From the NCBI RefSeq assembly GCF_007097155.1, contig NZ_VJWA01000002.1, positions 1,240,001-1,304,000 of the forward strand: 64,000 nt of DNA, written 5' to 3'. This document shows, in pieces, positions 10,145 through 40,405 of this stretch. The notes beneath the pieces were generated by a model that saw nothing but the letters and a program-made list of their open reading frames with translations, made no database searches and was not told the DNA's origin. The first letter of the stretch is position 1, and the number at the start of each line of letters is the position of its first letter. The position numbers were made by a program, and so were the translations under genes. Origin of the DNA: Glacieibacterium frigidum. Lineage in GTDB: Bacteria > Pseudomonadota > Alphaproteobacteria > Sphingomonadales > Sphingomonadaceae.

Positions 10145-11356
10145 TCAAGCCGCGAGTGCGCGCCGCCGCCGCAGCGCCGTGCCGACCATCCCGAAGCCGC
10201 CGATCAGCAGCGCCCAGGTCGCGGGCTCGGGCACCATCGACAGCAGATAGCCGCGCTGGACGCCGTCGGGCGTGTCGCCGAAGCCGACGATCTGCCCGGC
10301 GTCGTTGATCGCCTGCGCGGCATAGGTCGTGTAGCCGGCCGGCAGGTCGACCAGGCTGTCGAGCAGGAAGCCGTCGTAGCCGGTGCCGTTGAAGAACCAG
10401 ATCAGGCCGGTGACCGGCCCCAGATCGCCGGTATCGGCGTCGATCGCCTGACCGAAGCCCACGACGGTGCCGAAGTTGTTGATGCCGCGCGTCGTCGTGG
10501 TGTCGAACCCGTCCATGGTCAGCAGGAACTGGTCGCTGCCGCGCCACACCGCGCCGGTGCCGAACTGCGCGAGCGGACCGCCGAACACCTGGCCGGCGAC
10601 ATCGCCGCGGTCGTTGATCTCGCGCGCCCGCGACGAGACCTGTCCCTCGCCCAGAACCAGCACTTCGGCAGTGCCGCCGACACCGCTCCAGCGCACGGCG
10701 CGGAGGGCGTTGTTGCCGGGGCCCGAACGCAGCATGCCGGCGATCTGGCCGTCGTCGCCGATCGCGACGGCATTGCTGTTGCAGGGTGCCGAAGCGCACG
10801 GGTCGGCGAGCAGCAGCCCCTCGGTCGCGCCGCTGATCCAATAGGTCGCGCGCTGGCTGCCCAGCGCGATATTACCGACCGGTACGCCGCCTTCGGACAG
10901 GCCACCGATGGTGCCCGAGACGAGGCTGTAGCCGACGGTGGTGAAGCCGTTGCTGATGTCGAAGGCGCCGGCGGCGGCAAAGCCGGTTGCGCCGAACAGC
11001 TGCGTCGCGCCGCCCGTGGTGACCAGCGCGGCGCGGTCGTCGACGATCGTCATCGCGGTGCCGTCGCCCTGCACGACCGCCGCGGCGACCCCCTGGTTGT
11101 TGATGCCGCGCGTCGACGCGGTGAAGGCGCCGCCGAGCGTCGGCGTCTCGACTGGGGTGCCGCTCTCGAAGCGCGCCAGCCGGTTGGTCTGCGCGCCGAA
11201 GCCGGATTCGCCGGTGATCAGCCCGTTCTCGCTAATCGCGCGAGCGGCACTGCTGGTGTCGCCGGGCAGGGACCCGAGGTCGGTGAAGCTGTAGCGCGGC
11301 GCGGCCGTGGCGGCAGTGGCGCAGACGGTGGCGGCGACGACGATCCTGAGCAACAT
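10145..11356 (-). CDS. HAF-repeat PEPxxWA-CTERM sorted exoprotein
   Basis: A 403-residue exported protein. Signal peptide (about 1-19, ending ATAAP), then repeats with the 'INxxGxVxG' pattern (ISENGLITGES, INNQGVAAAVV, INDRGDVAGQV, INNFGTVVGFG, INDAGQIVGFG), typical of HAF-repeat beta-propeller-like extracellular proteins. The C-terminus has the PEP-CTERM tripartite signal: VPEPATWALL, a hydrophobic helix, and an RRRR cluster, for exosortase-dependent sorting. The exosortase is not in this window. The ATG at 11356 has GGAG 8 bp upstream, preferred over the adjoining TTG. It sits between rho and hemJ, an unusual place, so probably a lineage-specific insertion (inference). Confidence 0.9.
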   Translation of the reverse strand: MLLRIVVAATVCATAATAAPRYSFTDLGSLPGDTSSAARAISENGLITGESGFGAQTNRLARFESGTPVETPTLGGAFTASTRGINNQGVAAAVVQGDGTAMTIVDDRAALVTTGGATQLFGATGFAAAGAFDISNGFTTVGYSLVSGTIGGLSEGGVPVGNIALGSQRATYWISGATEGLLLADPCASAPCNSNAVAIGDDGQIAGMLRSGPGNNALRAVRWSGVGGTAEVLVLGEGQVSSRAREINDRGDVAGQVFGGPLAQFGTGAVWRGSDQFLLTMDGFDTTTTRGINNFGTVVGFGQAIDADTGDLGPVTGLIWFFNGTGYDGFLLDSLVDLPAGYTTYAAQAINDAGQIVGFGDTPDGVQRGYLLSMVPEPATWALLIGGFGMVGTALRRRRALAA

Positions 11357-26823: not shown

Positions 26824-27194
26824 GCGCTGGGCTCGAAGTCGAGCGCGACGCCGTTGATGCAGTGGCGCTTGCCCGTCGGCGCGGGGCCGTCGGGGAATTC
26901 ATGGCCCAGATGGCCCTTGCAGTTGGCGCAGTGCACCTCGGTCCGCGTCATGCCGAAGCTGCGGTCGACGGTGCGCTCGACGGCACCCGGGATCTCCTCG
27001 AAGAAGCTCGGCCAGCCGCTGCCGCTGTCGTACTTGGTGCCGCTGTCGTAGACGGCGTTGCCGCAGCCCGCGCAGTGATAGACGCCGGTGCGCTTTTCAT
27101 AGTTTAGCGGGCTGGTGCCGGCGCGCTCGGTGCCGTGCTCGCGCAGCACGTGGCGTGCCTGGGGGGACAGCTTGTCGTCACGGATATCGGTCAT
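26820..27194 (-). CDS. msrB: peptide-methionine (R)-S-oxide reductase
   Basis: A 124-residue enzyme that reduces methionine-R-sulfoxide in proteins. Zinc-binding CAGCG near 49 and CANCKGHLGHEF near 95, and the catalytic Cys in GKRHCINGVALDF near 114. A SGSGWPSFFEE block near 65 matches the family. ATG 27194 with an upstream AGGAG-type site (AAAAAAGGAGCC). The longer in-frame upstream version would run into the divergent permease and is rejected. Role: oxidative damage repair. Confidence 0.96.
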   Translation of the reverse strand: MTDIRDDKLSPQARHVLREHGTERAGTSPLNYEKRTGVYHCAGCGNAVYDSGTKYDSGSGWPSFFEEIPGAVERTVDRSFGMTRTEVHCANCKGHLGHEFPDGPAPTGKRHCINGVALDFEPSA

Positions 27195-27264
27195 GGGCGG
27201 CTCCTTTTTTCCTAGATAGGAATACGCGTGCGGCCCGGCTAGGTTACAGCCGGGGGACAGGCAC

Positions 27265-28548
27265 ATGAGCGATACGGCGCGACCGTTCGGCTTCTGGACC
27301 GCGACGGCACTCGTCGTCGGCGGCATGATCGGCTCGGCGATCTTCGTCCTGCCCGCCGCCCTCGCACCCTTCGGCTGGACCGGCGTGCTGGCGTGGGTGG
27401 TCGGGATCGGCGGCGCGCTCTGCGTCGCCTATGCACTGGGGCGGCTGGCGGCGACGATGCCGCATTCGACCGGGGCGATCGCGGTGACCGGCGCGGTGCT
27501 CGGCGACCTGCCCGCGGTTCTGATCGGCTGGAGCTACTGGATCTCATGCTGGGCGGCGTGCGCCGCTCTGTCGATCGCGGCGACCGGCTATCTGGCGGTA
27601 TTCTGGCCGGCGCTTGCGGCAACGCCGGCGCGCGGTGCCGCAGCCGCGCTCGTCATCCTGTGGCTGCTGACCCTGCTCAACCTGCGCGGTGCCAGGGCCG
27701 CGGGGCGCTTCCAGATTGTCACGACGTTGCTCAAGCTGTTGCCGCTGCTGGTCGTCGTCGGCATCGTCGCGCTCGCCGCCGGGGCGGGCGAGGTGACGCC
27801 GCCCCCATTGCCCGCCGCCGCCGACGTTTTCGCGGGCCTGACACCGGCCGTGACGCTGACCCTGTTCGCGCTGGTCGGCTTCGAGGCGACCGGTGTCGCT
27901 GCCGAACGGATCCGTGATCCGGGTCGCACGGTGCTTCGCGCGACCATGGCGGGCACTGCGCTGACCGGCGTCCTGTACCTGGTCGTCGCAACGGGCATCG
28001 GCTTCATGCTGCCGCCCGAGCGGCTGGCCGGGTCGGTGACGCCGTTTGCGCTGTTCGTAGAGACCTTCTGGGGCCGCGGCCCGGCGCTGCTGGTGGCGCT
28101 GTTCGCCGCCGTCGCCGCGATCGGCGCGCTTGGCTGCTGGGTATTGCTGCAGAGCGAGGTGCCGCTCGGCATGGCGCGCGCCGGGCTGCTGCCGCGCTGG
28201 TTCGGCATCGTTTCGGCGCGCGACGTTCCGGTGCGCGTCACCCTGTTGTCGAGCGTGCTGGCGAGCGTTCTGATCCTCGCCGCGGGCAGCGACAGCCTTG
28301 CGGGCCTCTACGTCTTTGTCGGCAAGCTGGTGACCAGCACGACGCTGTACCTCTACCTCGCGATCTGCGTCGCTGCGCTGATCCGCCGCGTCGCGGTGAT
28401 CCCTGCGGCGCTTGGGGTGCCGTTCACCCTCTGGGCGATGTGGGGCGCGGGGATTGAGGCGAGCGGACTCGGGCTGCTGCTGACCCTGACCGCGCTGCCG
28501 CTCTACTGGATGAGGGGCCAGGGGGCGATTGCGCCCCAGCCGCGTTAA
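27265..28548 (+). CDS. APC-superfamily amino acid permease
   Basis: A 427-residue inner-membrane transporter with about 12 helices. Helix 1 has the broken-helix motif TALVVGGMIGSAIFVLPAAL (residues 14-33), typical of APC antiporters of the AdiC/YjeH class, and helix 6 has LFALVGFEATGVAAERIRDP near 203-222. Substrate unknown; amino acid or amine exchange is inferred. It starts 70 bp from divergent msrB, with a common promoter region between them, and is followed after 8 bp by the lipid kinase gene. Confidence 0.88.
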   Translation: MSDTARPFGFWTATALVVGGMIGSAIFVLPAALAPFGWTGVLAWVVGIGGALCVAYALGRLAATMPHSTGAIAVTGAVLGDLPAVLIGWSYWISCWAACAALSIAATGYLAVFWPALAATPARGAAAALVILWLLTLLNLRGARAAGRFQIVTTLLKLLPLLVVVGIVALAAGAGEVTPPPLPAAADVFAGLTPAVTLTLFALVGFEATGVAAERIRDPGRTVLRATMAGTALTGVLYLVVATGIGFMLPPERLAGSVTPFALFVETFWGRGPALLVALFAAVAAIGALGCWVLLQSEVPLGMARAGLLPRWFGIVSARDVPVRVTLLSSVLASVLILAAGSDSLAGLYVFVGKLVTSTTLYLYLAICVAALIRRVAVIPAALGVPFTLWAMWGAGIEASGLGLLLTLTALPLYWMRGQGAIAPQPR

Positions 28549-28556
28549 GCCCCGCG

Positions 28557-29501
28557 ATGACCAGCACCACCGCCGAGCGCGAAGCCGAAAAACAGCGCCT
28601 CGGTGACAGGATCGCCGACGAGCGCCGCATCTCGATCGTCGTCAACACGCGTTCCAGGAAGGGCAAGCATCTGTTCGACGAGGCGTGCGAGCGCTTCAAG
28701 GCGGTCGGCTTCACCCTCGACGCGGCGCACGCGGTGCCCGACCCGAAGCATCTCGACACCCGCGTCTGCGAGGTCATCGCCGGCGGCGCGACGCTGGTCG
28801 CGGTCGGCGGCGGCGACGGGACGATCAGCTCGGTGTCGCGCCACTTCATCGGCAAGGCGGCGGTGCTCGGCGTGCTGCCGCTCGGCACCGCCAACAGCTT
28901 CGCGCGCAGCCTCGGCGTCCCGCAGGATCTGCAGGGCGCCATCGAAACGCTGGCCTCGGGCCGCGTCGCGGACGTCGACCTGGGCCGCATCGACGATCAT
29001 TATTTCACCAATGCCGCCGCCATCGGCCTGCCCGCGCTGATCGGCGAGACGGTGCCCCACGGGCTGAAGGCGGTACTCGGCCGCGTCGGCTATCTCGGCT
29101 GGGCAGCATACCAGTTGGCGCGCCTGAAGCCCTTCGAATGCACGCTGATCGAGGACGGTCAGGAACGACGCTATAGCGCGCTCGAGGTGCGGATCAGCAA
29201 CGGCAGCTACCTGGGCGGGCTCGAGGTCGCGGAGGAGGCGAGCGTCAACAGCCGCGACCTGACCATCCAGATCGTCACCGGCCGCAGCGGCTGGACGCTG
29301 GCGAAATCATGGCTGCTCAGCGCCGTTGGCAATGGCGGCGGCGAGACGCTCGTGTCGCTGCGCACCCCCGGCCTGCGGATCGTCACCGACCCCCCGATGA
29401 GTGTCTCGGTCGACGGCGAGGTGCTGTCCGACACGCCGATCGACGTGTCGGTCGCGCGCCAGCTGCTCAAGGTCATGGTGCCGAAGGACGCGACTCCGTA
29501 G
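28557..29501 (+). CDS. diacylglycerol kinase family lipid kinase (YegS/DagK-like)
   Basis: A 314-residue soluble kinase. The nucleotide-binding GGGDGT lies near residue 84, with IVVNTRSRKGKHLF at the start of the catalytic domain, LGTANSFARSLGVP near 108, and the C-terminal lobe SVDGEVLSDTPIDV. Phosphorylates a lipid such as diacylglycerol or a related acceptor (family knowledge). The final 29 bp overlap the 3' end of the metallophosphoesterase gene on the other strand. Confidence 0.92.
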   Translation: MTSTTAEREAEKQRLGDRIADERRISIVVNTRSRKGKHLFDEACERFKAVGFTLDAAHAVPDPKHLDTRVCEVIAGGATLVAVGGGDGTISSVSRHFIGKAAVLGVLPLGTANSFARSLGVPQDLQGAIETLASGRVADVDLGRIDDHYFTNAAAIGLPALIGETVPHGLKAVLGRVGYLGWAAYQLARLKPFECTLIEDGQERRYSALEVRISNGSYLGGLEVAEEASVNSRDLTIQIVTGRSGWTLAKSWLLSAVGNGGGETLVSLRTPGLRIVTDPPMSVSVDGEVLSDTPIDVSVARQLLKVMVPKDATP

Positions 29502-30309
29502 TCCAGCGCCCGTCCGCCAGCCGGTGGCACTCGATGCGCCCGGTCTCGAAGGCGCCGGTATCGCGCACGCGCACCTCGATCTCGCCTGTGTCGGTGCCGA
29601 TGCGGATCAGGTTGTAGCTGTTGCGCTCGCCCCGCACCCGCGTCGACGTCGCTGTCCCCGCCTGGACGACGAGCAGGCTGCCGTGCGTCGCCGCCACGCT
29701 CTCGGCCGACCCTGCGAAGCTGCGATGGTGATGCCCCGCCAGCAGCACGTCGACGCTCGCCTCGACCGCCGCCGCCAGCGCCCGCGGCGACCGCCCCGCC
29801 GCTCCCAGCAACGCCCCCTCCTCGCCCCAGGGCAGCGCGACGAGCGGGTGATGCGTCACCAGCACGCGCATCGCGTCCGCCGACGCGTCGGCGAACAGCG
29901 CAGGCAATTCGGCAATCTGCGCCACCGACACCCGCCCGTCCGCAATCGTCAGCGACCGCGCAGTGTTGATCCCGACCACCGCCACCCCCGGCGCCGCGAA
30001 GCGCGGCGTCAGGTCGCGCGTGATGAAATGGCGATAGCGCTTGAGCGGCGTCAGGAAGCGCCGCGCGACGTCGTACAGCGGAATATCGTGATTGCCCGGC
30101 ACGCCGAGCCACTTCAGCCCCAGCCCTTCGATATCCTGCAGGAACGCCCGCGCCTCCCGAAACTGCGACCGCCGTGCGCGTTGGGTGAAGTCCCCGCTGA
30201 CGACGACGAGGTCGGGGCGTGCGGTATCGAGGTCGGCGAGGACGGCGGCGACCGCCGCCGGATCGTGACGACCGAAGTGGACGTCGGAGAGGTGCGCGAT
30301 CTGGGCCAA
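29473..30309 (-). CDS. calcineurin-like metallophosphoesterase
   Basis: A 278-residue phosphoesterase with the five dinuclear-metal motifs: HLSDVHFGRHD (6-16), VVSGDFTQ (near 36), GVPGNHDIPL (near 69), LVTHHPL (near 150) and LAGHHHRSF (near 190). Resembles CpdA/Icc-like cyclic nucleotide or nucleotide phosphodiesterases, but substrate is not evident. Gene ends convergent with the lipid kinase (29-bp overlap) and begins 39 bp from the FAD enzyme upstream, so those two may share a transcript. Confidence 0.92.
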   Translation of the reverse strand: MAQIAHLSDVHFGRHDPAAVAAVLADLDTARPDLVVVSGDFTQRARRSQFREARAFLQDIEGLGLKWLGVPGNHDIPLYDVARRFLTPLKRYRHFITRDLTPRFAAPGVAVVGINTARSLTIADGRVSVAQIAELPALFADASADAMRVLVTHHPLVALPWGEEGALLGAAGRSPRALAAAVEASVDVLLAGHHHRSFAGSAESVAATHGSLLVVQAGTATSTRVRGERNSYNLIRIGTDTGEIEVRVRDTGAFETGRIECHRLADGRWTTESRPSAP

Positions 30310-30348
30310 GCAACTTCAACGCAGAAACGCAGCTTGCGTTTCGCGGGG

Positions 30349-31962
30349 CTAAACCCGCTTCCCCCTGAAATCCTTCACCACCTCGCGCGCTGCATTGTGC
30401 CCCGGCGCGCCGGTCACCCCGCCCCCGGGGTGGGTGCCGCTGCCGCACATGTAGAGGCCCTTCAGCGGGCCGCGATAGTCGCCGTGGCCCAGCATCGGGC
30501 GGGCGCTGAACAGCTGGTCGAGGGTCAGGCGGCCGTGGAAGATGTCGCCGCCGATCAGGCCGAACTTGCGTTCCAGATCGAGCGGCGAGTGGAGCTGGCG
30601 GGCGATGACGCTCGCCTTGAACCCCGGCGCCCATTTGTCGACTGCGCCGATCATGTGGTCGGCGACCGCCTCGCGCTCGTCGTCCCAGCTACGCCCGTCG
30701 GGCAGGACCGGCGCCACCTGCTGGCAGAACAGGCTGGCGACGTGGCTACCCGGTGGCGCGAGGCTGTCGTCGTAGAGCGACTGGATCAGCATCTCGACTA
30801 TCGGTTCGCGCGCGACGCCGAGCGTCTTCGCGTCGAGCCAGGCGCGCTCCATGTACGCCAGCGTCGGGCCGATGATGATCCCGGCGCGCAGATGGTCGCC
30901 GCCATCGTCGGGCGCGCAGGTGAACTTCGGCAGCCCGGACAGCGCGACATTCATGCGGAATACGCCCGACCCCGAGCGGTAACCCGCGATGCGCCGCACG
31001 AACGGCGCGGGCAGCAACGCGGGGTCGATCAACTGCTGGTACAGCATCTGCGGGTGGACGTTCGACACCACGGCCTTGGCGCGGATGGTCCTGCCGCCGC
31101 TGGTGACGACGCCGACCGCGCGGCCCTTCTCGACGATCACCTCCGCCACGCCGTCGCCGACCCGCACGTCGACGCCGGCTTCGACCGCCGACTTGCAGAT
31201 CGCGTCCGAGATCGCGCCCATGCCACCCATCGCGACGCCCCACACGCCCTTGACGCCGTTGACCTCGCCGAAGACGTGGTGGAGCAGGACGTAGGCGCTG
31301 CCGGGCTGGTACGGCGAGGCATAGTTGCCGACGATGCCGTCGAAGCCGAAGATCGCCTTGATCGGTTCGCTCTCGAACCAGCCGTCGAGATAGTCGCCGC
31401 ACGACTTGGCGAACAGCTCGAGCAGCGTCCGCCGCTCTTCCATGTCGAGCCTGCGCATGCGGTTGCCGAGCCGCGCGCCCGCCAGGATCTCGGGCAGCGC
31501 CTCGCGCCACGATCCCTCGACGACGTTGGGCGGGGTTTCGAGGACGAGATCGCGCATCACCTCGGCGACGCTGGCGAGCTCGCCCTCATAGACGTCGAGG
31601 CGGTCGGCGTCCTTCTGGCTGAACTTGGCAACTTCCTTGTGGGTGCGCCCCTGTCCCGTGGTCAGCGATCGGCCGTCCTCGGTCGGCAGGAAGTTGGCGA
31701 CGGGGCGGTGCACGATCTTCAGGCCGTGCTTCGCCAGGTCGAGGTCGGCGATGACCTTTTTGTTGAGCAGCGACACGGTGTAGCTGGCAGTCGAGTTACG
31801 AAAGCCGGGGTGGAATTCCTCGGTCACCGCCGCGCCGCCGACGATCTGGCGGCGCTCGACGAGCGTCACTTTCAGCCCCGCCCTGGCGAGATAGGCCGCA
31901 CAGGTGAGGCCGTTATGCCCCCCGCCAATGACGACGACGTCGGTATCCTGGTGCCCAGCCAT
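30349..31962 (-). CDS. FAD-dependent oxidoreductase, phytoene desaturase/PYROXD2-like
   Basis: A 537-residue flavoprotein. N-terminal VVVIGGGHNGLTCAAYLARA binds FAD, followed by VERRQIVGGAAVTEEF; the C-terminal block GLYMCGSGTHPGGGVTGAPG is typical of CrtI-like/PYROXD2-type desaturases. Catalytic substrate unknown; carotenoid desaturase is less likely, as no crt genes are near. No signal peptide. Its start lies at the edge of the divergent control region for the PEP-CTERM pair. Confidence 0.92.
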   Translation of the reverse strand: MAGHQDTDVVVIGGGHNGLTCAAYLARAGLKVTLVERRQIVGGAAVTEEFHPGFRNSTASYTVSLLNKKVIADLDLAKHGLKIVHRPVANFLPTEDGRSLTTGQGRTHKEVAKFSQKDADRLDVYEGELASVAEVMRDLVLETPPNVVEGSWREALPEILAGARLGNRMRRLDMEERRTLLELFAKSCGDYLDGWFESEPIKAIFGFDGIVGNYASPYQPGSAYVLLHHVFGEVNGVKGVWGVAMGGMGAISDAICKSAVEAGVDVRVGDGVAEVIVEKGRAVGVVTSGGRTIRAKAVVSNVHPQMLYQQLIDPALLPAPFVRRIAGYRSGSGVFRMNVALSGLPKFTCAPDDGGDHLRAGIIIGPTLAYMERAWLDAKTLGVAREPIVEMLIQSLYDDSLAPPGSHVASLFCQQVAPVLPDGRSWDDEREAVADHMIGAVDKWAPGFKASVIARQLHSPLDLERKFGLIGGDIFHGRLTLDQLFSARPMLGHGDYRGPLKGLYMCGSGTHPGGGVTGAPGHNAAREVVKDFRGKRV

Positions 31963-32270
31963 GCGTGTCCCCCTGCTGATGGGCGTTTCTGCCGGGGGGG
32001 CTCAACAAAGTCCATCGCGGGCCCCGGCAGAGTGTAAGATTTTCCGACAGTTCGACGTTCGTAAAGGTTAACAGCTTGAATTTATAGGCTCGTTCCGGCG
32101 TGCTAAATCATTGATTTTTCGTAAACGAACTTGGAATCGCGGCGTTAACTTGTTTGGCACACGACTTGCTTAACATTTGTTGGGTGCGGCGGGCCGCTCG
32201 CGCCCGACCGACAGAGAGCGCGCGGGGCGCTCGCTTAACCGGGTCAGCTGGCGGCCTTGAGGCTATTTTA
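31963..32270. promoter_or_regulatory. 308-bp AT-richer divergent control region (PYROXD2-like / PEP-CTERM pair)
   Basis: No gene is seen. The region has a 10-bp perfect inverted repeat (TCTGCCGGGG at 31988-31997, complement at 32022-32031), two copies of TTCGTAAA exactly 60 bp apart (32058 and 32118), the second inside the palindrome TTCGTAAACGAA, and two GTTAAC palindromes (32067 and 32144). A sigma-54 site lies at 32154-32170. Such upstream repeats could be activator sites for a sigma-54 enhancer-binding protein. Confidence 0.55.
32154..32170 (+). promoter_or_regulatory. sigma-54 (RpoN) -24/-12 promoter
   Basis: The sequence TTGGCACACGACTTGCT matches the consensus YTGGCACGrNNNTTGCW at all strong positions, with GG and GC exactly 12 bp apart. 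It would start transcription near 32182 and give a leader of about 90 nt before the first PEP-CTERM gene. Sigma-54 with the PrsK/PrsR regulators is known to control PEP-CTERM/exosortase genes in other bacteria; PrsK/PrsR are not in this window. Confidence 0.75.
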
Positions 32271-32957
32271 ATGCGCTTCTCTCATCTCGCAATCGCCGTG
32301 GCGGCGATCGCAGTCGGCACGACTGCCAATGCCGCCAATCTCGTCATCAACGGCTCGTTCGATGCCGACACTACTGCCACCAAGATCAACTTTCAGGGCA
32401 ATGTCACCGGCTGGACCGGCGGCGCGGCGTTGACCTTCCTCGCGCCTCCGGGTTCGGCGGACGATCCCGCGCAGTATCTCGCGGTCTATGGCCCGTTCGA
32501 GGACGAGAGCCCTGACGGCGGCAATTTCATCCTTGCCGACGGCGATCCCAGTTACTCGGATGCGTTCTCGCAGACGATCAACGGGCTGACCATCGGCGGC
32601 AAGTACAAGATCGACTTCTATCAGGCGGCGGGGCAGCAGCTCGGCTTCACTGGCGCAACGACCGAGCGTTGGTCGGTGACATTCGGCACCGAAAATTTTC
32701 TCTCGGACATGTTCGAGCTGCCCGAAGCCGCTGTCGGCCCGTGGGAAGCGCAAAGCTACACCTTCACCGCAACGTCGGTCAGCCAGGTCCTGATCTTCCT
32801 CGCCGTCGGTACGCCCGGTGGCGCACCGCCGATCTCGATGCTCGACGGCGTGTCGCTGACCGCCGTTCCCGAGCCCGCGACCTGGGCCCTGCTGATCGGC
32901 GGTTTCGCCATGGTCGGCGTCGCCGCCCGTCGTCGCCGCACCACCGTCGTCGCCTGA
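32271..32957 (+). CDS. PEPxxWA-CTERM sorted exoprotein 1
   Basis: A 228-residue exported protein. Signal peptide (about 1-21, ending ANAANL), a beta-rich body starting LVINGSFDADTT, and a C-terminal PEP-CTERM signal: VPEPATWALLIGGFAMVG followed by ARRRR. The body resembles 'NGSFE'-type jelly-roll/choice-of-anchor modules (inference). The ATG at 32271 starts directly at the signal peptide, well downstream of the sigma-54 promoter. Paralogue of the next gene, 64 bp downstream. Probable fate: exosortase cleavage and surface or matrix release. Confidence 0.88.
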   Translation: MRFSHLAIAVAAIAVGTTANAANLVINGSFDADTTATKINFQGNVTGWTGGAALTFLAPPGSADDPAQYLAVYGPFEDESPDGGNFILADGDPSYSDAFSQTINGLTIGGKYKIDFYQAAGQQLGFTGATTERWSVTFGTENFLSDMFELPEAAVGPWEAQSYTFTATSVSQVLIFLAVGTPGGAPPISMLDGVSLTAVPEPATWALLIGGFAMVGVAARRRRTTVVA

Positions 32958-33021
32958 ACCCTCCCGCCTTGGCCGGGCGCGGTACGCCGCGTCCGGCCGG
33001 GCACATTGTGAAAGTAGTCAA

Positions 33022-33789
33022 ATGCGTATCAACACCATTCTCATCGCCGCCGCACTCGCCGCCTCGGCAAGCAGCGCCGGCGCCGTCGAGCTCGTCGTCA
33101 ACGGCGGCTTCGAAACCTGGGGCCTCGGCAATCAGTCGGGCCAGTTCGGGACCGCTTATGCACCGGGCGAAACGGCGCTTGCGGGCTGGACGACGTCCGG
33201 CCTGACCTATGTCTTCGTACCCGGCGACAACACTGCGGTCGGCCAGTACGGCGACTTCCAGCTGTACGGTCCGTCGAACGGCTATCCCAACGGTCTGACC
33301 ACCAGCAGCCAGGGCGGCAACTATGTCGCTACGGATGCGGATCGCGGCTTCGGCACGCCGATCACGCAGCTCGTCAGCGGCTTCGAAGTCGGCAAGGAAT
33401 ATGTCGTCAAGTTCGAGTGGGCCGCAGCACAGCAGCTGAACTACAACGGCGCCACTTTCGAAGCGTGGCAGGCCAGCATCCTGGCGTCGAACACCACCGA
33501 CCTGCGAACCGACCAGACGATCGCCGATTACGTCACGGAGACGGTCATCAATCCCCAGGCCGGCTTCCAGCCGTGGCGCAACGAGTCGTTCCGCTTCACC
33601 GCCACCGAAGCGTCGCACATCCTGCGCTTCTGGGCGACCGGCGGTCCCGGCGGTCTGCCGCCCTTCGCGCTGCTCGACGGCGTGTCGATCACCGCGGTGC
33701 CCGAGCCCGCGACCTGGGGCCTGCTGATCACCGGCTTCGCGATGGTCGGCGTCGCCGCCCGCCGCCGCCGCCGCGTGGTTGCCGCGTAA
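33022..33789 (+). CDS. PEPxxWA-CTERM sorted exoprotein 2
   Basis: A 255-residue exported protein with a signal peptide (ending SSAGAVEL, about 1-21), a body starting LVVNGGFETWGL, and a C-terminal VPEPATWGLLITGFAMVG tail with RRRRR. Shares the end of its body (QPW-NESFRFTA, LLDGVSITAVPEP) with the upstream gene (GPWEAQSYTFTA, MLDGVSLTAVPEP), so a tandem duplication is likely. Likely co-transcribed from the sigma-54 site: the 64-bp gap has no obvious promoter or terminator of its own. Confidence 0.88.
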   Translation: MRINTILIAAALAASASSAGAVELVVNGGFETWGLGNQSGQFGTAYAPGETALAGWTTSGLTYVFVPGDNTAVGQYGDFQLYGPSNGYPNGLTTSSQGGNYVATDADRGFGTPITQLVSGFEVGKEYVVKFEWAAAQQLNYNGATFEAWQASILASNTTDLRTDQTIADYVTETVINPQAGFQPWRNESFRFTATEASHILRFWATGGPGGLPPFALLDGVSITAVPEPATWGLLITGFAMVGVAARRRRRVVAA

Positions 33790-33913
33790 CCCATGACTGC
33801 AGCCGGGCGGCGCGTCCGCCCGGCTGCCCTTGCTTTGCGGCATTTGCGCAAACGTCATCGCCGCGCGTGCGGCGACGGTGTAACGAGGTACGGTTGGTAA
33901 CCGGGGTATATCT

Positions 33914-34783
33914 TTGACCGACGTTTCGACCTTCGCGATGCAGGTGATGAAGCTCTCCGTGTGGCTGGCGCTGCTGACGGCGATCTTCGTGCCGCTCGAA
34001 CGCTGGTTCGCGCTGAAGGCGTCGCCGTGGCGGCGGGCGGAGATCGGCAACGATCTCGCATATTATTTCATCAACAATATCGTGCCCGCGATGCTGCTGG
34101 CGCTCCCGCTGGCGGCGTTGGCGACCCTGCTCCAGCATGTCGTGCCCGCCGGTTTCTACGAGGGCGTGCGCGCCCTGCCGCTGTGGGTGTCGATCCCGCT
34201 CGGCCTCGTCGTCGCCGATATCGGGGCGTACTGGGGGCATCGGCTGAGCCACGAGATCCCGTGGCTGTGGCGCTTTCACGCCGTCCACCACAGCGCCGAA
34301 CATATCGACTTCATGGTCAACTCGCGCGCGCATCCGATCGACATGGTCGTCACGCGCCTGTTCGGGCTGGTGCCGCTGTACATGCTCGGGCTCGGTTCGG
34401 CGGGGGCGGCGGGGAGCATCCTGCCGGCGGTCATAGCGATCATCGGCACGCTCGCGGCGTTCTTCGTCCATGCCAACGTCCGCTGGCGGCTGGGGCCGAT
34501 CGAGCAGCTGGTCGCGACGCCCGCCTTCCACCACTGGCACCACACCCGCACCGACCATATCAACCGCAACTATGCCGCGACCTTTCCATGGATCGACCGG
34601 CTGTTCGGCAGCTTCTACCTGCCGGCACACTGGCCCGATGCGTACGGCATCCCGGAGCCGCTGAGCCCGACCTTGTCCGGACAACTTCTCGCGCCGTTCA
34701 CGCGGTCAGAGCCAGTCGTTCGCCCGGTACCAATCGGCGGTGGCGCGCAGCCCGTCGGCGAGGGCGACCTGCGGACGCCATAG
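33914..34783 (+). CDS. sterol desaturase/fatty acid hydroxylase family membrane protein
   Basis: A 289-residue integral membrane di-iron enzyme. His clusters GHRLSHE (near 107), HAVHHSAEH (near 121) and HHWHHTRTDH (near 207) form the eight-His box of the fatty acid hydroxylase superfamily. Hydroxylates or desaturates a lipid, substrate unknown. The family normally ends near GQLLAPF; here the frame runs on for about 27 residues across the end of the convergent epimerase (78-bp overlap). Start is uncertain: TTG 33914 or ATG 33938. Confidence 0.85.
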   Translation: MTDVSTFAMQVMKLSVWLALLTAIFVPLERWFALKASPWRRAEIGNDLAYYFINNIVPAMLLALPLAALATLLQHVVPAGFYEGVRALPLWVSIPLGLVVADIGAYWGHRLSHEIPWLWRFHAVHHSAEHIDFMVNSRAHPIDMVVTRLFGLVPLYMLGLGSAGAAGSILPAVIAIIGTLAAFFVHANVRWRLGPIEQLVATPAFHHWHHTRTDHINRNYAATFPWIDRLFGSFYLPAHWPDAYGIPEPLSPTLSGQLLAPFTRSEPVVRPVPIGGGAQPVGEGDLRTP

Positions 34784-35596
34784 CGCGCTCAGATTGTCGC
34801 CGCGCGTCACCCAGTCGGGGTGCGCGAGGTAACGGGCGCGCTCGGCGGTGAGACGCGAATGCCCGCCGCGCAGCCTTGCCACCGTCGTCGCCAGCGTCGC
34901 AGCGATCGCCATGCCCCAGCCGGGGACCTTGATCGGGATAACCCGCTTGCCGACAGCGACGCCGAGCGCCTGCGCCAGTTCGCGGTGACTCAGCGGCTCG
35001 CCGTCGCTGAGTTCATGCGTCGCGCGAGTGGCGGGGGCTGCGGCGAGCGCGAGCAGGGCGCGGGACAGGTCAGACGCCTCGATCATCGACGCATGACCGT
35101 CCGACGGGATCAGCGCGATGCCGTGCTTCGCCAACTGGAAAAGCGCCAGCGTCTCGCGGTCGCCCGGGCCATAGACGCCGGGCGGCCGGACGATCGACCA
35201 GTCGAGGTCCGACTCCTCGATCAGCCGCTCCGATGCCGCCTTCGACGCGCCGTATGCCGACAGGCCGGGCTCGCGCGCCGCGAGGCTCGAGACATGGACG
35301 AAGCGGCGCACCCCGGCGGCCTCTGCCACGGCGATCATCGTCGCGGTGCCCGCGACATTGCCCTCGAAGAAGCCCGCTGGGTCGGGGGCGTTGATGACGC
35401 CGGCGAGGTGGATGACGGCGTCGGCGCCTTCGCACAGGTCGGCGGGGTGAGTCAGGTCGCCGCTGACCCAAATGACGCCGGGCTGCGCGGATTGCGGGCG
35501 GCGGGTCAGCGCGCGGACTTCGTGGCCGGCAGCGACGGCCAGGCGCAGCAGGTGGCCGCCGACGAAGCCGGTACCGCCGGTGACGGCGAGGATCAT
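34706..35596 (-). CDS. NAD-dependent epimerase/dehydratase (extended SDR)
   Basis: A 296-residue Rossmann enzyme: N-terminal MILAVTGGTGFVGGHLLRLA (residues 1-20), DAVIHLAG near 58, VHVSSLA near 99, YGASK near 114 with the catalytic Tyr and Lys, and VRPPGVYGPGD near 135. Likely acts on a nucleotide sugar or related carbonyl; substrate not clear. ATG 35596 is chosen; the longer version would run into the palindromic repeat upstream. Convergent with the sterol desaturase-like gene. Confidence 0.87.
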   Translation of the reverse strand: MILAVTGGTGFVGGHLLRLAVAAGHEVRALTRRPQSAQPGVIWVSGDLTHPADLCEGADAVIHLAGVINAPDPAGFFEGNVAGTATMIAVAEAAGVRRFVHVSSLAAREPGLSAYGASKAASERLIEESDLDWSIVRPPGVYGPGDRETLALFQLAKHGIALIPSDGHASMIEASDLSRALLALAAAPATRATHELSDGEPLSHRELAQALGVAVGKRVIPIKVPGWGMAIAATLATTVARLRGGHSRLTAERARYLAHPDWVTRGDNLSALWRPQVALADGLRATADWYRANDWL

Positions 35597-35602
35597 CTTC
35601 TG

Positions 35603-35729
35603 CCCCCCTCCCTCTTCAGGGAGGGGCTGGGGGTGGGTGCGAGCGTCTTCGCGAGCCTGTCTGTAAGCAAGAAGAGCGCGGCAAGCGCAGCGCACCCACC
35701 CCCGGCCCCTCCCTGAAGAGGGAGGGGGG
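35603..35729. repeat. composite palindrome, 39-bp inverted repeat with one mismatch
   Basis: Arms 35603-35641 and 35691-35729 are reverse complements over 39 bp except one base. The outer part of each arm is itself a hairpin (CCCTCCCT ... AGGGAGGG). The spacer of 49 bp carries AAGAAGAGCGCGGC, also found beside the 14.6-kb palindrome (14717-14730). It fills the epimerase-FAAL gap, where no gene is seen. It could form a stable RNA hairpin in a transcript passing through. Confidence 0.9.
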
Positions 35730-35734
35730 AAGGG

Positions 35735-37489
35735 TTACGCCGCAATTTCAAAGGGCTGAATCTCGCCCGACAGATACTGCAGCCGCGCCTTGCTCCGGCT
35801 CAGCTTCCCCGACGACGTTCGCGGCAGGGTCCGCGGCGGCACCAGCTCGACCACGCACGTCATGCCGGTGATGTTGCGCACCTTGTTGCGGATCGCGTCG
35901 CGCAGCACCATGCGCTCGGCCAGGTCGGACGTGCGGCACTGGACCAGCACCGCAGGCTCTTCCTCGCCCGCCGGCGAGGTGATCGAGAACGCGGCGATGT
36001 CGCCCGCCTTGAAGCCCGGCAACTGCTCGATCGCCCACTCGATGTCCTGCGGCCAGTGGTTCTTGCCGTTGATGATGATCATGTCCTTGGCGCGGCCGAC
36101 GATGTAGATATAGCCGTCGACGAGGTAGCCCATGTCGCCGGTGTCGAGCCAGCCGTCGGCCAGGCACGCAGCGGTCGCCTCGGGATCGCGGAAATAGCCC
36201 GCCATGATGCCTTCGCCGCACACATAGATGCGCCCGATGCGGCGGTCCGCGAGCACGCCGCCGTCGTCGCCGCGCACCTCGACCGACAGGCCGCGCACCG
36301 GCTTGCCGCAGTTGACGATGGCGCGGTAGCGGATCGGCTTTGACGCATCGACCGGCCCGGCGCGGCCTTCGCCCGACAGCACGCGCTCGTCGACGAGGTC
36401 GGTGATGATCCCCTCGCCGATCGGCATCATGCTGACCGCAAGCGTCGCCTCGGCGAGGCCATAGCTCGGCAGGAAGGCGCTCGCCTTGAAGCCTGCGGCA
36501 TCGAAGACATCGACGAAATGCTGCATGACATCGGGGCGGATCATGTCGGCGCCGTTACCTGCGACCCGCCAGCGCGACAGGTCGAAGCGCGCCGCGACGT
36601 CGATCGACGACGACACGCGCCGCGCGCAGATGTCGTAGCCGAAGGTCGGCGAATAGCTGAGCGTATGGCCCTCGTTGCGGCTGACGAGGGTCAGCCACGA
36701 CAGCGGGCGGCGCGCGAAATCCTCGGTCGCGAGATAGTCGCCCGACATCTGGTTCGCCAGCGGCGAGAGCAGGCAGCCGACCAGCCCCATGTCGTGATAC
36801 CAGGGCAGCCACGACACGATGCGGTCGTCGTCGCGGACCTGCGTCGCGATGGCGTGCCCTGCAAGGTTCGCCAGCAATGCGCGATGCGTGACCGCGACGC
36901 CGTGCGGGAAACGCGTGCTGCCGCTGGAATACTGGAGATAGGCGATGTCGTCGGGGGTCGCCTGCGGCAGGTCGGCGTGCGGCACCGGGGTCGCGGCGAA
37001 CACCGCCCAGTCGTGCGCGGTGCAGCGCGGCAGGGTCGATGCAGCCTCCTCGACCAGCGCGAACAGCCCCGGCGGCGACAGCACGAGCAGCGGGTCGCAG
37101 CTGCCGAGCTGGGTGCGGATCTGCTCGACATAGGCGTCGCGCCCGCCGAACGAGGTGGGCAGCGGCAGCGGCGTCGGCAGCGCGCCGGCATAGACCGCGC
37201 CGAAGAAGGCGGCAGCGAAATCGGCCCCCGTCTCGGCGATCAGAGCAACACGCTCGCCCGGCGTGACGCCTGCCGCGATCAGCCGCCGCGCCTGGTCCAG
37301 CGCATCGGCGCGCAACTCGGCATAGGGATAGGCGCGTGCCAAGGTCGCACGCGCATCGAAGAAGTTCAGCCCGCGCTGGCCCTGCGCGGCATAGTCGAGC
37401 GCTTCGCCGAGCGTGGCGAAGTCGGCGATGCGGCGCGGCAACGCGTCGAGCGTTGCGGTCACGCCGTCGGTAATGGGCGAATGCAGCAA
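35735..37489 (-). CDS. fatty acyl-AMP ligase (FAAL-type adenylating enzyme)
   Basis: A 584-residue member of the ANL adenylating superfamily. ATP-binding A3 motif YSSGSTRFPHGVAVTH near 185-200, PWYHDMGLVG near 229, A5-like SYGLAEATLAVS near 335, A7 LDTGDMGYLVDGYIYIVGR near 439, and a terminal A10 PRTSSGKLSR with its Lys. The FPHGV reading in A3 fits FAAL rather than acyl-CoA ligases. It activates a fatty acid as acyl-AMP for transfer to an acyl carrier protein. No PKS, NRPS or carrier gene is near. The start is probably TTG 37489 (GAGAGGG upstream); a GTG at 37558 is possible. Confidence 0.88.
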   Translation of the reverse strand: MLHSPITDGVTATLDALPRRIADFATLGEALDYAAQGQRGLNFFDARATLARAYPYAELRADALDQARRLIAAGVTPGERVALIAETGADFAAAFFGAVYAGALPTPLPLPTSFGGRDAYVEQIRTQLGSCDPLLVLSPPGLFALVEEAASTLPRCTAHDWAVFAATPVPHADLPQATPDDIAYLQYSSGSTRFPHGVAVTHRALLANLAGHAIATQVRDDDRIVSWLPWYHDMGLVGCLLSPLANQMSGDYLATEDFARRPLSWLTLVSRNEGHTLSYSPTFGYDICARRVSSSIDVAARFDLSRWRVAGNGADMIRPDVMQHFVDVFDAAGFKASAFLPSYGLAEATLAVSMMPIGEGIITDLVDERVLSGEGRAGPVDASKPIRYRAIVNCGKPVRGLSVEVRGDDGGVLADRRIGRIYVCGEGIMAGYFRDPEATAACLADGWLDTGDMGYLVDGYIYIVGRAKDMIIINGKNHWPQDIEWAIEQLPGFKAGDIAAFSITSPAGEEEPAVLVQCRTSDLAERMVLRDAIRNKVRNITGMTCVVELVPPRTLPRTSSGKLSRSKARLQYLSGEIQPFEIAA

Positions 37490-37632
37490 GATCGACCCTC
37501 TCTCAGACCCCTTTGCCGTGCCGGTTGCCCCGGCTCGACGCACGGCTGACCCCCGCACGCACGGCGTTCCCGATATTAAACCTTAGTTGCCGCGACGGCG
37601 CGTTCAAATTCGGACGCCACTATGGCAGAACC

Positions 37633-38160
37633 GTGGCGGTGAAGCCCCGACCAGATCGTTCCGAGCGACCGCCTCCGCCGCCGCTCGATGCGTCCACGCT
37701 GCGCGACCTCGCGCTGCGCTACGTCGGAAGATACGCGACGACTGCCGCGAAGTTGCAGCGCTACCTGGGCCGCAAGCTGTGGGAGCGCGGCTGGGGCGGC
37801 GACGGCGCGGCCCCCGTCGAGGCGCTGGTCGCGCAGTTCGTCGCGCAGGGCTATGTCGACGATCGCAGCTTCGGCGAGGCGCGCGCACGGGGCCTCGCGG
37901 GCAAGGGCTTCGGTGCCCGCCGCGTCGGGCAGGACCTGCAGGCGGCGGGGCTGGCGCGCGAGCTGGCGAGCGAGATCGGCGCGACGGTCGACGGGCGCGC
38001 GGCCGCCGAACGCTTTGCCCAGCGCCGTCGCTTCGGACCGTGGGACCGAAGCGGGTACGACCCCGACCGCCACCGCAAGCAGGTCGCCGCGATGCTGCGC
38101 GCCGGCCACGATTTCGCGACGGTGCGCGCCGTGCTGCGCGGCGACGCGGTCGAGGACTGA
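37633..38160 (+). CDS. recX: RecX family regulatory protein
   Basis: A 175-residue RecX-type protein, an inhibitor or modulator of RecA filaments. Helical repeats: DLALRYVGRYATTAAKLQRY (near 22-41), RGWGGDGAAPVEALVAQFVA, then YVDDRSFGEARARGLAGKGF near 73-92 and the closing helices with the HRKQVAAMLRAGHDFATVR segment. No recA nearby in the window. The GTG at 37633 is the best start after the upstream region; a second GTG two codons on is equally possible. Its stop is 5 bp from the convergent GH1-RmlD stop. Confidence 0.87.
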   Translation: MAVKPRPDRSERPPPPPLDASTLRDLALRYVGRYATTAAKLQRYLGRKLWERGWGGDGAAPVEALVAQFVAQGYVDDRSFGEARARGLAGKGFGARRVGQDLQAAGLARELASEIGATVDGRAAAERFAQRRRFGPWDRSGYDPDRHRKQVAAMLRAGHDFATVRAVLRGDAVED

Positions 38161-38165
38161 CGCGG

Positions 38166-40304
38166 CTACTCGGCGGCGACGGCGTACCGGGCCGCTGCCG
38201 GCCGATACGCCTGCGCAAACCGCGCGATCGCTGACTCGAGCGTCGGCATCAGCTGGCCGCGTGCACTCGCGAGCCGCACGTCGCGCGGGCGTGGGGCACC
38301 GCCGTCGTCGCTGACGACACCGACGCGGCGGCGGTCGAGGCCGCTCGCATCGGCGAGCGCGCGCGCGAAGTCGGCCCAGCTCATGCCGCCCTGGTTGGCG
38401 AGGTGCCAGACGCCGCCTTCGTCGTCGATCAGCAGGTCGAGAAGCGCGTCGACGAGATCGGGCACATAGGTCGGCGAGACGATCTGGTCGGCGGCGGCGG
38501 CGAAGATCCCGAAGTTCGCCAGCGCATCGACCGCATTCACCGCGAAGTTGTGCGGATCGTCGGGCGAGAAGAATGCCGAGGTGCGGATCACCAGCGCGTC
38601 GCGGTGTGCCTCGATGACCTGCCGTTCGGCATCGGCCTTCGACCGACCATAGGCATTGAGCGGCCGCGTCGCGTCGCCCTCGACGTAAGGCGCACTCCTG
38701 CCGCCGAAGACCTGGTCCGACGAGATCTGGACGAGCGAAATGCCGCGTGCAGCGCAGGCGACCGCGAGGGTCTGGGCACCCTTGGCGTTGACCGCATCGC
38801 ACAGGGCGGGCTCGCGCTCGGCCAGATCGATGTCGACGATCCCGGCGCAATTGATCACCGCCCAGGGCGTATGGCTCGCGAGCGCCCGCGCGATCGACCA
38901 GGGGTCGGTCAGCGCCAGCGTCTCCCGGTCGGTCAGCACGTGCGCCAAGCCGCGCCGGGCACACGCGGCGCTCAGTGCCCGCGCCAGCGTGCCCGTCCCG
39001 CCGGTGATCAGGATCGGACGCCCTCCCACCGCGGCTGCGGCGTCGCCGTCGTAGCCGTCGAGGAAGCGGTCGGGACGCTGCCACCAGCCGGGGGCACGAA
39101 GCAGATCGGCGTGCGGCCGCGGGCCATCGGCAGCCAGCGCTGCGAGCAGCCCTGCCATCGCGGTCGCGCGCGGCGGCGTGCTGCGCAGGTCGAAGACGCC
39201 GACCTCGTAATGCCCCTCGGGGCGAGTCAGCAGGCTGTTCCAGTCGACCGCGCCGAGCAGCGCCCACGCGGTCACCGCCTCGACCGGCACGCCCGATAGT
39301 TTCGCGGCGCGAGCGCCGTCCCAGACCTGCGCGAACCAGCGCAGCTGCTCGTCGCGCGTCGAGGCGTTGTGGCACTCGGTGATCGCGACCGGCCGCTCGT
39401 ACCGCTCCCATGCGTCGCGCAGCAGCGCCTCGACCGAGATCATCGTCGGCACGGTCCGCACGGCTTCTGTATTCACGCAGTCGGCGCCGTCGCCTGCCGG
39501 GGCGACGCCGGGGTGCAGGTCGAAGCGGTGTGTCAGGAAGCGATTGCTGCACAGATAATGATTGATGCCGATCACGTCGGCCGGGCACGGGTCGGCGGCG
39601 ATGGCGCGCAGGCGATCCTCCAGCCCGTGGCTCGCGATCCGCTGCCACAGCGGATGGCCGGGAACGACGCGGCCGTCGAGCAGGTCCCAGCTCAGCCAGC
39701 GGCGGTGGTTCTCAAAATCGCACTGGTCGGCCAGTTCGGGGGTTGATTGGGTCTCGCCGATGTCGTCGGTCTGCACCAGCCGCGCCGCCGGATTGACGCG
39801 GCGGATCGCACGCATCGACAGGCGCACCGCGTCGATCTGGTTGAGCAGCGCCGCCCAGCACGCTTCCTCGGTGGCGGCGTGCGGGTACCAGAGCCCGTAG
39901 AGGCAGCTGAAGCGCGCCGTCGTCAGCGGCTCGTTGACCGGGGTCCAGTCGCGCACCCAGGGGAAGCGCTCGGCGACGATGCGCGCGTGCTCGGCAAGGC
40001 CGGTGGCGAAATCGGCGTCGAGTAGGCTGGTATGCGGCGGGCCGCTGCCGTGGTGGATCAGACCGACGATGGGCCGCACGTCGAGGCGCCGCAATTCCTC
40101 GAGCTGGCGGGCTGCGCGGTCGAGCGCGTGCGCGTCGGCGGCGCAGTCCTCCCACAGCACGGGGTAGCGGATCGCGCGGATGCCGGTCGCGGCAAAGGCA
40201 GCCAGATCCTCGATCCGGTCGCCGTGGCAGGAGAAACTGGCCTGATCGGAATAGACGTCGCCGATCCGGCCGATCGTGCATTCCAGGCCGCCCCAGACCT
40301 CCAT
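38166..40304 (-). CDS. GH1-like glycosidase fused to dTDP-4-dehydrorhamnose reductase-like domain
   Basis: A 712-residue two-domain protein. Residues 1-395: (beta/alpha)8 GH1/GH-A-like domain with the acid/base motif TPVNEP (Glu125) and a candidate nucleophile in ITECHNAS (Glu310; GH1 usually ITENG). Residues about 428-705: RmlD/extended-SDR domain with ITGGTGTLARAL, VINCAGIVDIDLAE, ISSDQVFGG, and the YGRSK catalytic pair (Tyr552, Lys556). This fusion is known in some alphaproteobacteria from my memory, but the pathway is not clear. No signal peptide, so cytoplasmic. It precedes the MoeA/MocA gene at 100 bp. Confidence 0.87.
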   Translation of the reverse strand: MEVWGGLECTIGRIGDVYSDQASFSCHGDRIEDLAAFAATGIRAIRYPVLWEDCAADAHALDRAARQLEELRRLDVRPIVGLIHHGSGPPHTSLLDADFATGLAEHARIVAERFPWVRDWTPVNEPLTTARFSCLYGLWYPHAATEEACWAALLNQIDAVRLSMRAIRRVNPAARLVQTDDIGETQSTPELADQCDFENHRRWLSWDLLDGRVVPGHPLWQRIASHGLEDRLRAIAADPCPADVIGINHYLCSNRFLTHRFDLHPGVAPAGDGADCVNTEAVRTVPTMISVEALLRDAWERYERPVAITECHNASTRDEQLRWFAQVWDGARAAKLSGVPVEAVTAWALLGAVDWNSLLTRPEGHYEVGVFDLRSTPPRATAMAGLLAALAADGPRPHADLLRAPGWWQRPDRFLDGYDGDAAAAVGGRPILITGGTGTLARALSAACARRGLAHVLTDRETLALTDPWSIARALASHTPWAVINCAGIVDIDLAEREPALCDAVNAKGAQTLAVACAARGISLVQISSDQVFGGRSAPYVEGDATRPLNAYGRSKADAERQVIEAHRDALVIRTSAFFSPDDPHNFAVNAVDALANFGIFAAAADQIVSPTYVPDLVDALLDLLIDDEGGVWHLANQGGMSWADFARALADASGLDRRRVGVVSDDGGAPRPRDVRLASARGQLMPTLESAIARFAQAYRPAAARYAVAAE

Positions 40305-40405
40305 AGTTCATAGCCTTGTGCGGTTGCCGTTGAGCCTGACCCAACACGCAACCGTCCGCAGCGGTGCCGATCACGGGAACAATAATCCGGATAGGTTAAC
40401 CTAGA

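Follow-up and report, generated by a model that had tools for sequence, protein, structure and literature searches.

The 64 kb stretch of the Glacieibacterium frigidum genome analysed here (the window; C2:1240001-1304000 of the 3.43 Mb genome, G000) contains a tandem pair of genes for PEPxxWA-CTERM exoproteins. The sequence that precedes them, at 32033-32170, is very probably an enhancer-dependent sigma-54 promoter under the control of the PrsK/PrsR two-component system. The promoter element, TGGCACACGACTTGCT, combines the 12 bp GG/GC spacing of sigma-54 promoters with a TGGCAC-N5-TTGCW context: GG is at 32156-32157, GC is at 32168-32169, and the first ATG, at 32271, is 100 nt downstream. A preliminary description had proposed an RpoN -24/-12 match with this GG-GC spacing about 100 bp ahead of the gene, and the positions, spacing and distance all agree with the sequence. 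That description overlooked a second element, a PrsR box (Haft motif 1), TGTCGGAAAATCTTACA, at 32033-32049, that is inverted relative to the promoter and separated from the -24 element by 105 nt. At the sequence level, support comes from the two motifs, their genome-wide pairing, the phasing of box-to-promoter spacers, conservation in a congener and the presence of RpoN, PrsK, PrsR and an exosortase. Expression of both genes is predicted to depend on RpoN and PrsR.

By analogy with the protein families involved, PrsK would phosphorylate PrsR, and PrsR, an NtrC-type AAA+ oligomer, would bind the inverted box. The 105 nt spacer would loop back, placing PrsR on the same face of the helix as the RpoN polymerase at 32155-32170, and ATP hydrolysis by PrsR would open the promoter for transcription from approximately 32181. 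The first exoprotein would then be made, with its paralogue produced by read-through past a hairpin that lacks a U run, and the transcript would end at the terminator-like hairpin at 33799-33827. Both exoproteins would be secreted and processed at the cell surface by the single XrtV-type exosortase.

Genome-wide distribution of promoters and boxes

When the pattern TGGCACN5TTGCW was used to search both strands of the genome, 18 exact matches and 65 matches with one mismatch were found; composition alone would be expected to yield approximately two exact copies (our estimate, from about 31 one-mismatch variants). Fourteen of the 18 exact sites are on the coding strand upstream of PEPxxWA-CTERM genes; these stretches make up so little of the genome that approximately 0.1 sites would be expected in them (our estimate). 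The site at 32155-32170 is the only exact match in the window. Because the exact genomic copies mostly precede PEPxxWA-CTERM genes, this site is not a chance match and, judged by sequence, is a real promoter-like element.

The genome contains 84 PEPxxWA-CTERM genes, all above the 35 bit cut-off of the NCBIfam model NF035944. For each, the scan covered the 600 nt before the gene and its first 60 nt. The best coding-strand sites comprised 14 exact, seven one-mismatch and seven two-mismatch sites, compared with zero, zero and three on the opposite strand. All exact and one-mismatch sites were retained, together with the two of the two-mismatch sites that lie within 60 nt of the start codon (31-34 nt away), and the other five were dropped for distance. 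Start codons in L111 and L120 were misplaced by the script, and their site-to-start distances are inflated. This leaves 23 of the 84 genes with a promoter: the one in the window and 22 others (13 exact, seven one-mismatch and two two-mismatch). The scan for the same promoter beside PEP-CTERM genes, which the preliminary description had proposed as a check, was thus favourable, and the single regulated surface or matrix programme that it envisaged would cover these 23 genes and not all 84. A single promoter-like match has become a candidate regulon of 23 exoprotein genes among 84, with a role testable through one activator.

Alignment of the promoter-bearing genes yielded a 17 nt box, TGTCGG-N5-YTTACA. 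The box in the window ends in CTTACA; C and T both occur at this place in the genome's set. Exact boxes number 14 genome-wide, and all are upstream of these promoters, 13 at PEPxxWA-CTERM genes and one at a further exact site, L011 (C1:1578908). A box with two or fewer mismatches, in either orientation, is found upstream of 20 of the 23 promoter-bearing genes but only three of the 61 site-less genes, while a reversed-sequence control box is found at one of 23 and one of 61, respectively. Among the other 22 promoters of the genome, 19 have a direct box (three or fewer mismatches) at 41-73 nt and one, at C1:1393518, has an inverted box with one mismatch at 96 nt. The remaining two, C2:850470 and C1:291443, have only an 18 nt variant of the box, read by eye, approximately 41-42 nt from the promoter.

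The four exact sites that are not associated with PEPxxWA-CTERM genes are L001, L010, L011 and L013. L001 is at a gene for a FlgE/F/G-type hook protein (PF22692), L010 at an FHIPEP flagellar export gene (PF00771) and L013 at a sigma-54 activator gene (PF00158). No box was found at any of these three, the best candidates having 4-5 mismatches. L011 is between truA (tRNA pseudouridine synthase, PF01416) and epsI (DUF3485, PF11984), and a small membrane-protein open reading frame (ORF) is downstream of it.

Regulators and exosortase

RpoN is encoded by a single gene (PF04552, 214.5 bits). PrsR (672.7 bits; cut-off 502.6) and PrsK (621.9 bits; cut-off 300) are encoded by adjacent genes. A single short ORF lies in the approximately 0.9 kb between prsR and a PEP-CTERM gene that has both box and site. 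The only exosortase is of type XrtV (368 bits; cut-off 313). One exosortase thus stands against 84 PEPxxWA-CTERM proteins in this genome.

The composite of box and site is associated with PrsR across 298 genomes of the same family. With a loose pattern that allows both box orientations, it was found in 70 of 252 genomes with PrsR and three of 46 without (Fisher P = 0.0013, kinship ignored). The corresponding numbers for the strict pattern were 44 of 252 and two of 46 (P = 0.025, kinship again ignored). The 46 genomes counted as lacking PrsR are those missing from the PrsR match list.

Box-to-promoter spacing

Box-to-promoter spacers are helically phased. When the 298 family genomes were searched with the strict pattern and spacers of 50-80 nt were allowed, all 108 matches, from 46 genomes, had spacers of 51-54, 61-66 or 72-76 nt, and none had spacers of 50, 55-60, 67-71 or 77-80 nt. 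None of 20,000 random draws was equally concentrated. The genomes belong to one family and share some orthologous sites; with each spacing counted once per genome, the 87 remaining values were similarly concentrated. A looser pattern added 51 further matches among the 150 listed, all in the same three bins.

An independent test used the bins fixed from the family, a looser box and 398 genomes drawn across the phylum. Outside the family, all nine matches (seven genomes) fell in the bins, which cover 15 of the 31 possible values (P = 0.0015), and five of the nine are followed within 1.5 kb by a PEP-CTERM tail. In the genome of the window, direct boxes with three or fewer mismatches are at 41-42, 51-53, 63-64 and 72-73 nt. 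The fit is looser beyond 80 nt because direct spacers scatter there (84, 84, 86, 86, 86, 86, 87, 97 and 108 nt). Phasing that places the activator and polymerase on the same face of the helix is a requirement of looping by NtrC-type activators and is established for NtrC and NifA. The spacers described here provide a natural, large-scale case of the geometry of sigma-54 DNA looping, as well as a better search pattern.

Box orientation and the congener

Inversion of the box is favoured at distance. When spacers of 81-111 nt were allowed in both orientations, 18 matches were found in 15 of the 298 genomes: eight inverted, nine direct and one direct variant. The inverted boxes are at 93, 94, 94, 103, 105, 105, 105 and 107 nt, and four of the eight are from one genome, G134. 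At 50-80 nt, the inverted reading was better in four of the 150 matches listed (1-2 mismatches) and tied with the direct reading in four more, and none of the 150 had an exact inverted box. The difference between four of the 150 matches listed and eight of 18 is significant (Fisher P = 1.3e-6, kinship ignored). A blanket rule that inverted boxes occur only when far from the promoter was considered and is too strong, given the four near boxes that read better inverted. It holds for exact boxes among the matches listed, where exact inverted boxes were found only at 93-107 nt. Each of the six other inverted boxes that were examined has a PEP-CTERM gene downstream.

Only one congener, G001, was found. 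Its orthologue of the first exoprotein gene (70% identity) retains both the site and an inverted box, at 93 nt. The gene upstream of this orthologue encodes an amino-acid permease and is in the same direction as the exoprotein gene rather than divergent from it. In G001 the orthologue is not followed directly by a second PEP-CTERM gene, and the tandem pair is therefore not conserved there.

Exoprotein genes and transcript layout

The features of the region are listed in Table 1. The two exoproteins share 36% identity over 242 columns, and both are above the cut-off of NF035944; each has a signal peptide (by eye), a PEP motif, a hydrophobic stretch and a basic end, and an exosortase is present in the genome, as expected for exosortase substrates. 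The tandem paralogues with PEP-CTERM tails recognized in the preliminary description are thus confirmed. So is the lack of a site at the third PEPxxWA-CTERM gene of the window, where the best candidate has five mismatches; this gene is not one of the three site-less genes with a box (two or fewer mismatches). Named relatives of the first protein were found at eight loci, all titled Sphingomonas, with a best full-length identity of 40%; they were not used in the analysis.

Table 1. Features of the exoprotein region and of two loci discussed with it
Feature	Position	Strand	Remarks
PrsR box (Haft motif 1), TGTCGGAAAATCTTACA	32033..32049	-	inverted relative to promoter; 1 of 14 exact genomic copies
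Sigma-54 -24/-12 promoter element, TGGCACACGACTTGCT	32155..32170	+	exact motif match
Predicted transcription start	32181..32182	+	approximately 12 nt past GC, from usual sigma-54 spacing
First exoprotein gene	32271..32957	+	228 amino acids; signal peptide (by eye) and PEPxxWA-CTERM tail; NF035944 48.6 bits, PF07589 28.8 bits
G+C-rich hairpin between exoprotein genes	32966..33002	+	no U run; from folding
Second exoprotein gene	33022..33789	+	255 amino acids; paralogue of first, PEPxxWA-CTERM tail; NF035944 44.4 bits, PF07589
Terminator-like hairpin 3' of second gene	33799..33827	+	12 pairs
Third PEPxxWA-CTERM gene of window	10145..11356	-	no site, no box; comparison only
Small single-helix membrane protein ORF, own genome	L140:10690-10923 (C1:1578908)	-	box and site before it; between truA and epsI, beside exosortase operon

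The second gene is probably co-transcribed with the first, by read-through from its promoter. The genes are separated by a 64 nt gap, and the best sigma-54 candidate upstream of the second gene has four mismatches. The intergenic hairpin is absent from the list of terminator-like sites, which for the stretch scanned contains two entries (1.7 expected in shuffled sequences). The 86 nt stretch around it folds at -36.3 kcal/mol (z = -1.58), and 15 of 200 shuffles were equal or better, so that this stability is unremarkable for the composition. The hairpin may reduce or process the read-through transcript.

Comparison with known systems

A 17 nt motif 1 that ends in TTTACA, is located upstream of a sigma-54 motif (motif 2) and was proposed as the PrsR site was described by Haft et al. 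2006 (PMC1569441) for PEP-CTERM systems with PrsK, PrsR and the TPR lipoprotein PrsT. In the relevant passages of PMC1569441, the two motifs are on average 62.8 nt apart (range 32-92), and of 167 proteobacterial PEP-CTERM genes 99 are reported to have the region upstream, with a few sites before other genes. The box of the window and its genome fits the description of motif 1 in length, ending and location, in a comparison made with the text alone. The window resembles the region described in PMC1569441 in having a motif 1-like box, a sigma-54 motif downstream, a PEP-CTERM gene next and adjacent genes for PrsK and PrsR in its genome, and differs in having the PEPxxWA type of tail together with XrtV. 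Neither helical phasing nor box orientation is mentioned in section 7 and the other located passages of PMC1569441. More generally, the literature covered, to which most subscription journals do not belong, contained no description of helical phasing or of the orientation of boxes at PrsR promoters, nor of distal boxes that are inverted or of RNA as an output. While the promoter type has been known since 2006, the spacing rule and the layout with an inverted distal box appear to be undescribed.

Aquincola is a betaproteobacterial floc former. The pepA gene of Aquincola tertiaricarbonis RN12 has a mapped -24/-12 promoter, TGGCAC/CTGCTT, and its RpoN-dependent transcription was demonstrated (PMC9850573). 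The parts of PMC9850573 that concern pepA give dependence on PrsR only as probable; of the preliminary description's statement that sigma-54 and PrsK/PrsR drive PEP-CTERM genes, the RpoN part is established there and the PrsR part is probable. Like the window, Aquincola has a -24/-12 promoter before a PEP-CTERM gene and a putative stem-loop 3' of it. However, the next gene in Aquincola is prsT and not a paralogue, and the evidence there is experimental while that presented here is computational.

A more distant case is DVUA0057 of Desulfovibrio vulgaris, a response regulator predicted to act on PEP-CTERM genes. According to the relevant part of PMC3333781, its five predicted targets were enriched by DNA affinity purification with microarray detection (DAP-chip). 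That regulon differs from the one described here in belonging to a distant bacterium and in involving a plasmid-borne extracellular polysaccharide operon.

Alternative explanations

Several observations weigh against a PrsK/PrsR-controlled promoter that serves both genes. Matches to the sigma-54 pattern with two or fewer mismatches are at the level of chance in the window (19 observed, 20.75 expected), and those with one or no mismatch are not in excess genome-wide (83, compared with 77 for the reversed pattern). Because near matches show no excess in either, the evidence comes solely from exact matches and where they occur. At 105 nt and inverted, the box falls outside both the 32-92 nt range of Haft motif 1 and its direct orientation, the latter implied rather than stated in the text of PMC1569441. 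By the criteria used, 61 of the 84 PEPxxWA-CTERM genes lack a sigma-54 site, so that the majority are probably under other control. A match to even the looser composite is missing from 182 of the 252 PrsR-bearing genomes; either the pattern is too strict to capture the biology, therefore, or PrsR also acts at other sites. Finally, a transcript from this promoter must read through a stable intergenic hairpin to reach the second gene.

This hairpin raises the possibility, which we consider doubtful but a serious one, that the promoter serves the first gene only and that the second has its own transcript or is scarcely transcribed. The lack of a second gene behind the orthologue in G001 points the same way, as the second gene may be a later addition, or may have been lost in the congener. 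However, the gap between the genes is short, the hairpin has no U run and the sole terminator-like site outside genes is the one after the second gene. Nor was a source of separate transcription seen: in addition to the lack of a sigma-54 site before the second gene, no sigma-70-like site was found on the + strand in 31900-34000.

A sigma-54 promoter that responds to an enhancer-binding protein other than PrsR is improbable. Candidates are available, in that seven proteins in the genome, PrsR itself included, match the PrsR model across its central domain, and three exact sites are at other genes (two flagellar, one activator). Those three sites have no box, though, in contrast to the sites of 20 of the 23 PEP-CTERM genes, and both the association of the composite with PrsR across genomes and the proposal of Haft et al. 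2006 point to PrsR.

We regard it as very improbable that the first gene uses a sigma-70-type promoter and that its -24/-12 match arose by chance. The numbers of near matches in window and genome would allow this, but exact sites are paired with boxes and PEP-CTERM genes across the genome, site and box are both conserved in the congener, and the + strand of the region offers no sigma-70-like site. It is hardly credible that the target of the inverted box is, instead of the exoprotein gene, the oxidoreductase-like gene that runs divergently on the minus strand from 31962 downwards. The box points that way, but no sigma-54 match, even at two mismatches, is present on the minus strand from 27160 to 43282, the congener keeps the inverted box behind a permease gene directed towards the exoprotein gene, and a PEP-CTERM gene follows each of the six other inverted boxes that were examined.

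Outputs of related promoters

A broader generalization, to which we give roughly even odds, concerns PrsR promoters across Pseudomonadota. The box would be located only at whole helical turns from the promoter (approximately 41, 52, 63, 73, 84, 94 and 105 nt), forward when near, with exact inverted boxes tolerated only far away. The regulon would extend beyond PEP-CTERM genes to a short, non-coding hairpin RNA in several sphingomonad genera, for which a convergent glutaredoxin gene is often found, and to a small single-helix membrane protein in the genome of the window and others. The hairpin RNA and one-helix protein outputs are leads and not results.

The DNA downstream of 60 box-plus-site matches in other genomes was read (six inverted, nine direct with long spacers and 45 strict, each from a different genome). 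A PEP-CTERM tail was detected by script after 33 of the 60, comprising all six inverted, four of the nine long direct and 23 of the 45 strict matches, with some contigs ending too early. Tails of the PAP type were found at three more loci (L189, L207 and L208). Among 20 further matches, which were picked by eye and are mostly alike (GTTAACC type), and so are not a random sample, 14 are followed by a clear PEP- or PAP-type tail. Tail matches in L245, L249 and L257 were in wrong frames and were not counted.

The second output is a short transcript that soon meets a strong hairpin. In L204, L232, L233, L234, L235, L242 and L262, it is convergent with a glutaredoxin gene, the 3' end of which is 94-382 nt past the site. 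The glutaredoxin was identified by PF00462 in L235, and the others are 73-89% identical to that of L235 by tblastn. L198 was removed from this group, as its glutaredoxin gene is 1.4 kb away. In the glutaredoxin group the first hairpin ends at approximately +48 to +69 from the predicted start, and this stretch is a candidate small RNA that we offer as a lead. Hairpin leaders convergent with other genes are found in L192, L194-L196 and L221, L194 and L196 being assigned on their resemblance to L192 and L195. In L199 and L201 (genus g70), the hairpin transcript is convergent with the 3' end of a PEP-CTERM gene.

No ORF was seen in the hairpin leaders by eye, no formal ORF test being applied. Rfam returned no match near the gathering score for the 14 loci of the hairpin class searched, which exclude L196 and L262 (best E 0.099, 24.9 bits compared with 97). 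Each of eight hairpin sequences folds singly, but RNAalifold found no common structure in their MAFFT alignment (energy 0.0); for L262, folding was limited to the stem search. We claim no covariation because the RNAalifold consensus is empty. If the hairpin transcripts are true small RNAs, exoprotein export gains a post-transcriptional arm.

The third output is a one-helix protein of approximately 35-55 amino acids, found at L011 in the genome of the window and at L216, L224, L226 and L230. L011 was considered as an orphan antisense promoter into epsI, which was rejected given the small membrane-protein ORF in the DNA downstream. In L248, L249 and L253, PrsR-type promoters precede genes for tiny proteins that amount to approximately a signal peptide and a PEP-CTERM-like tail, partly degenerate.

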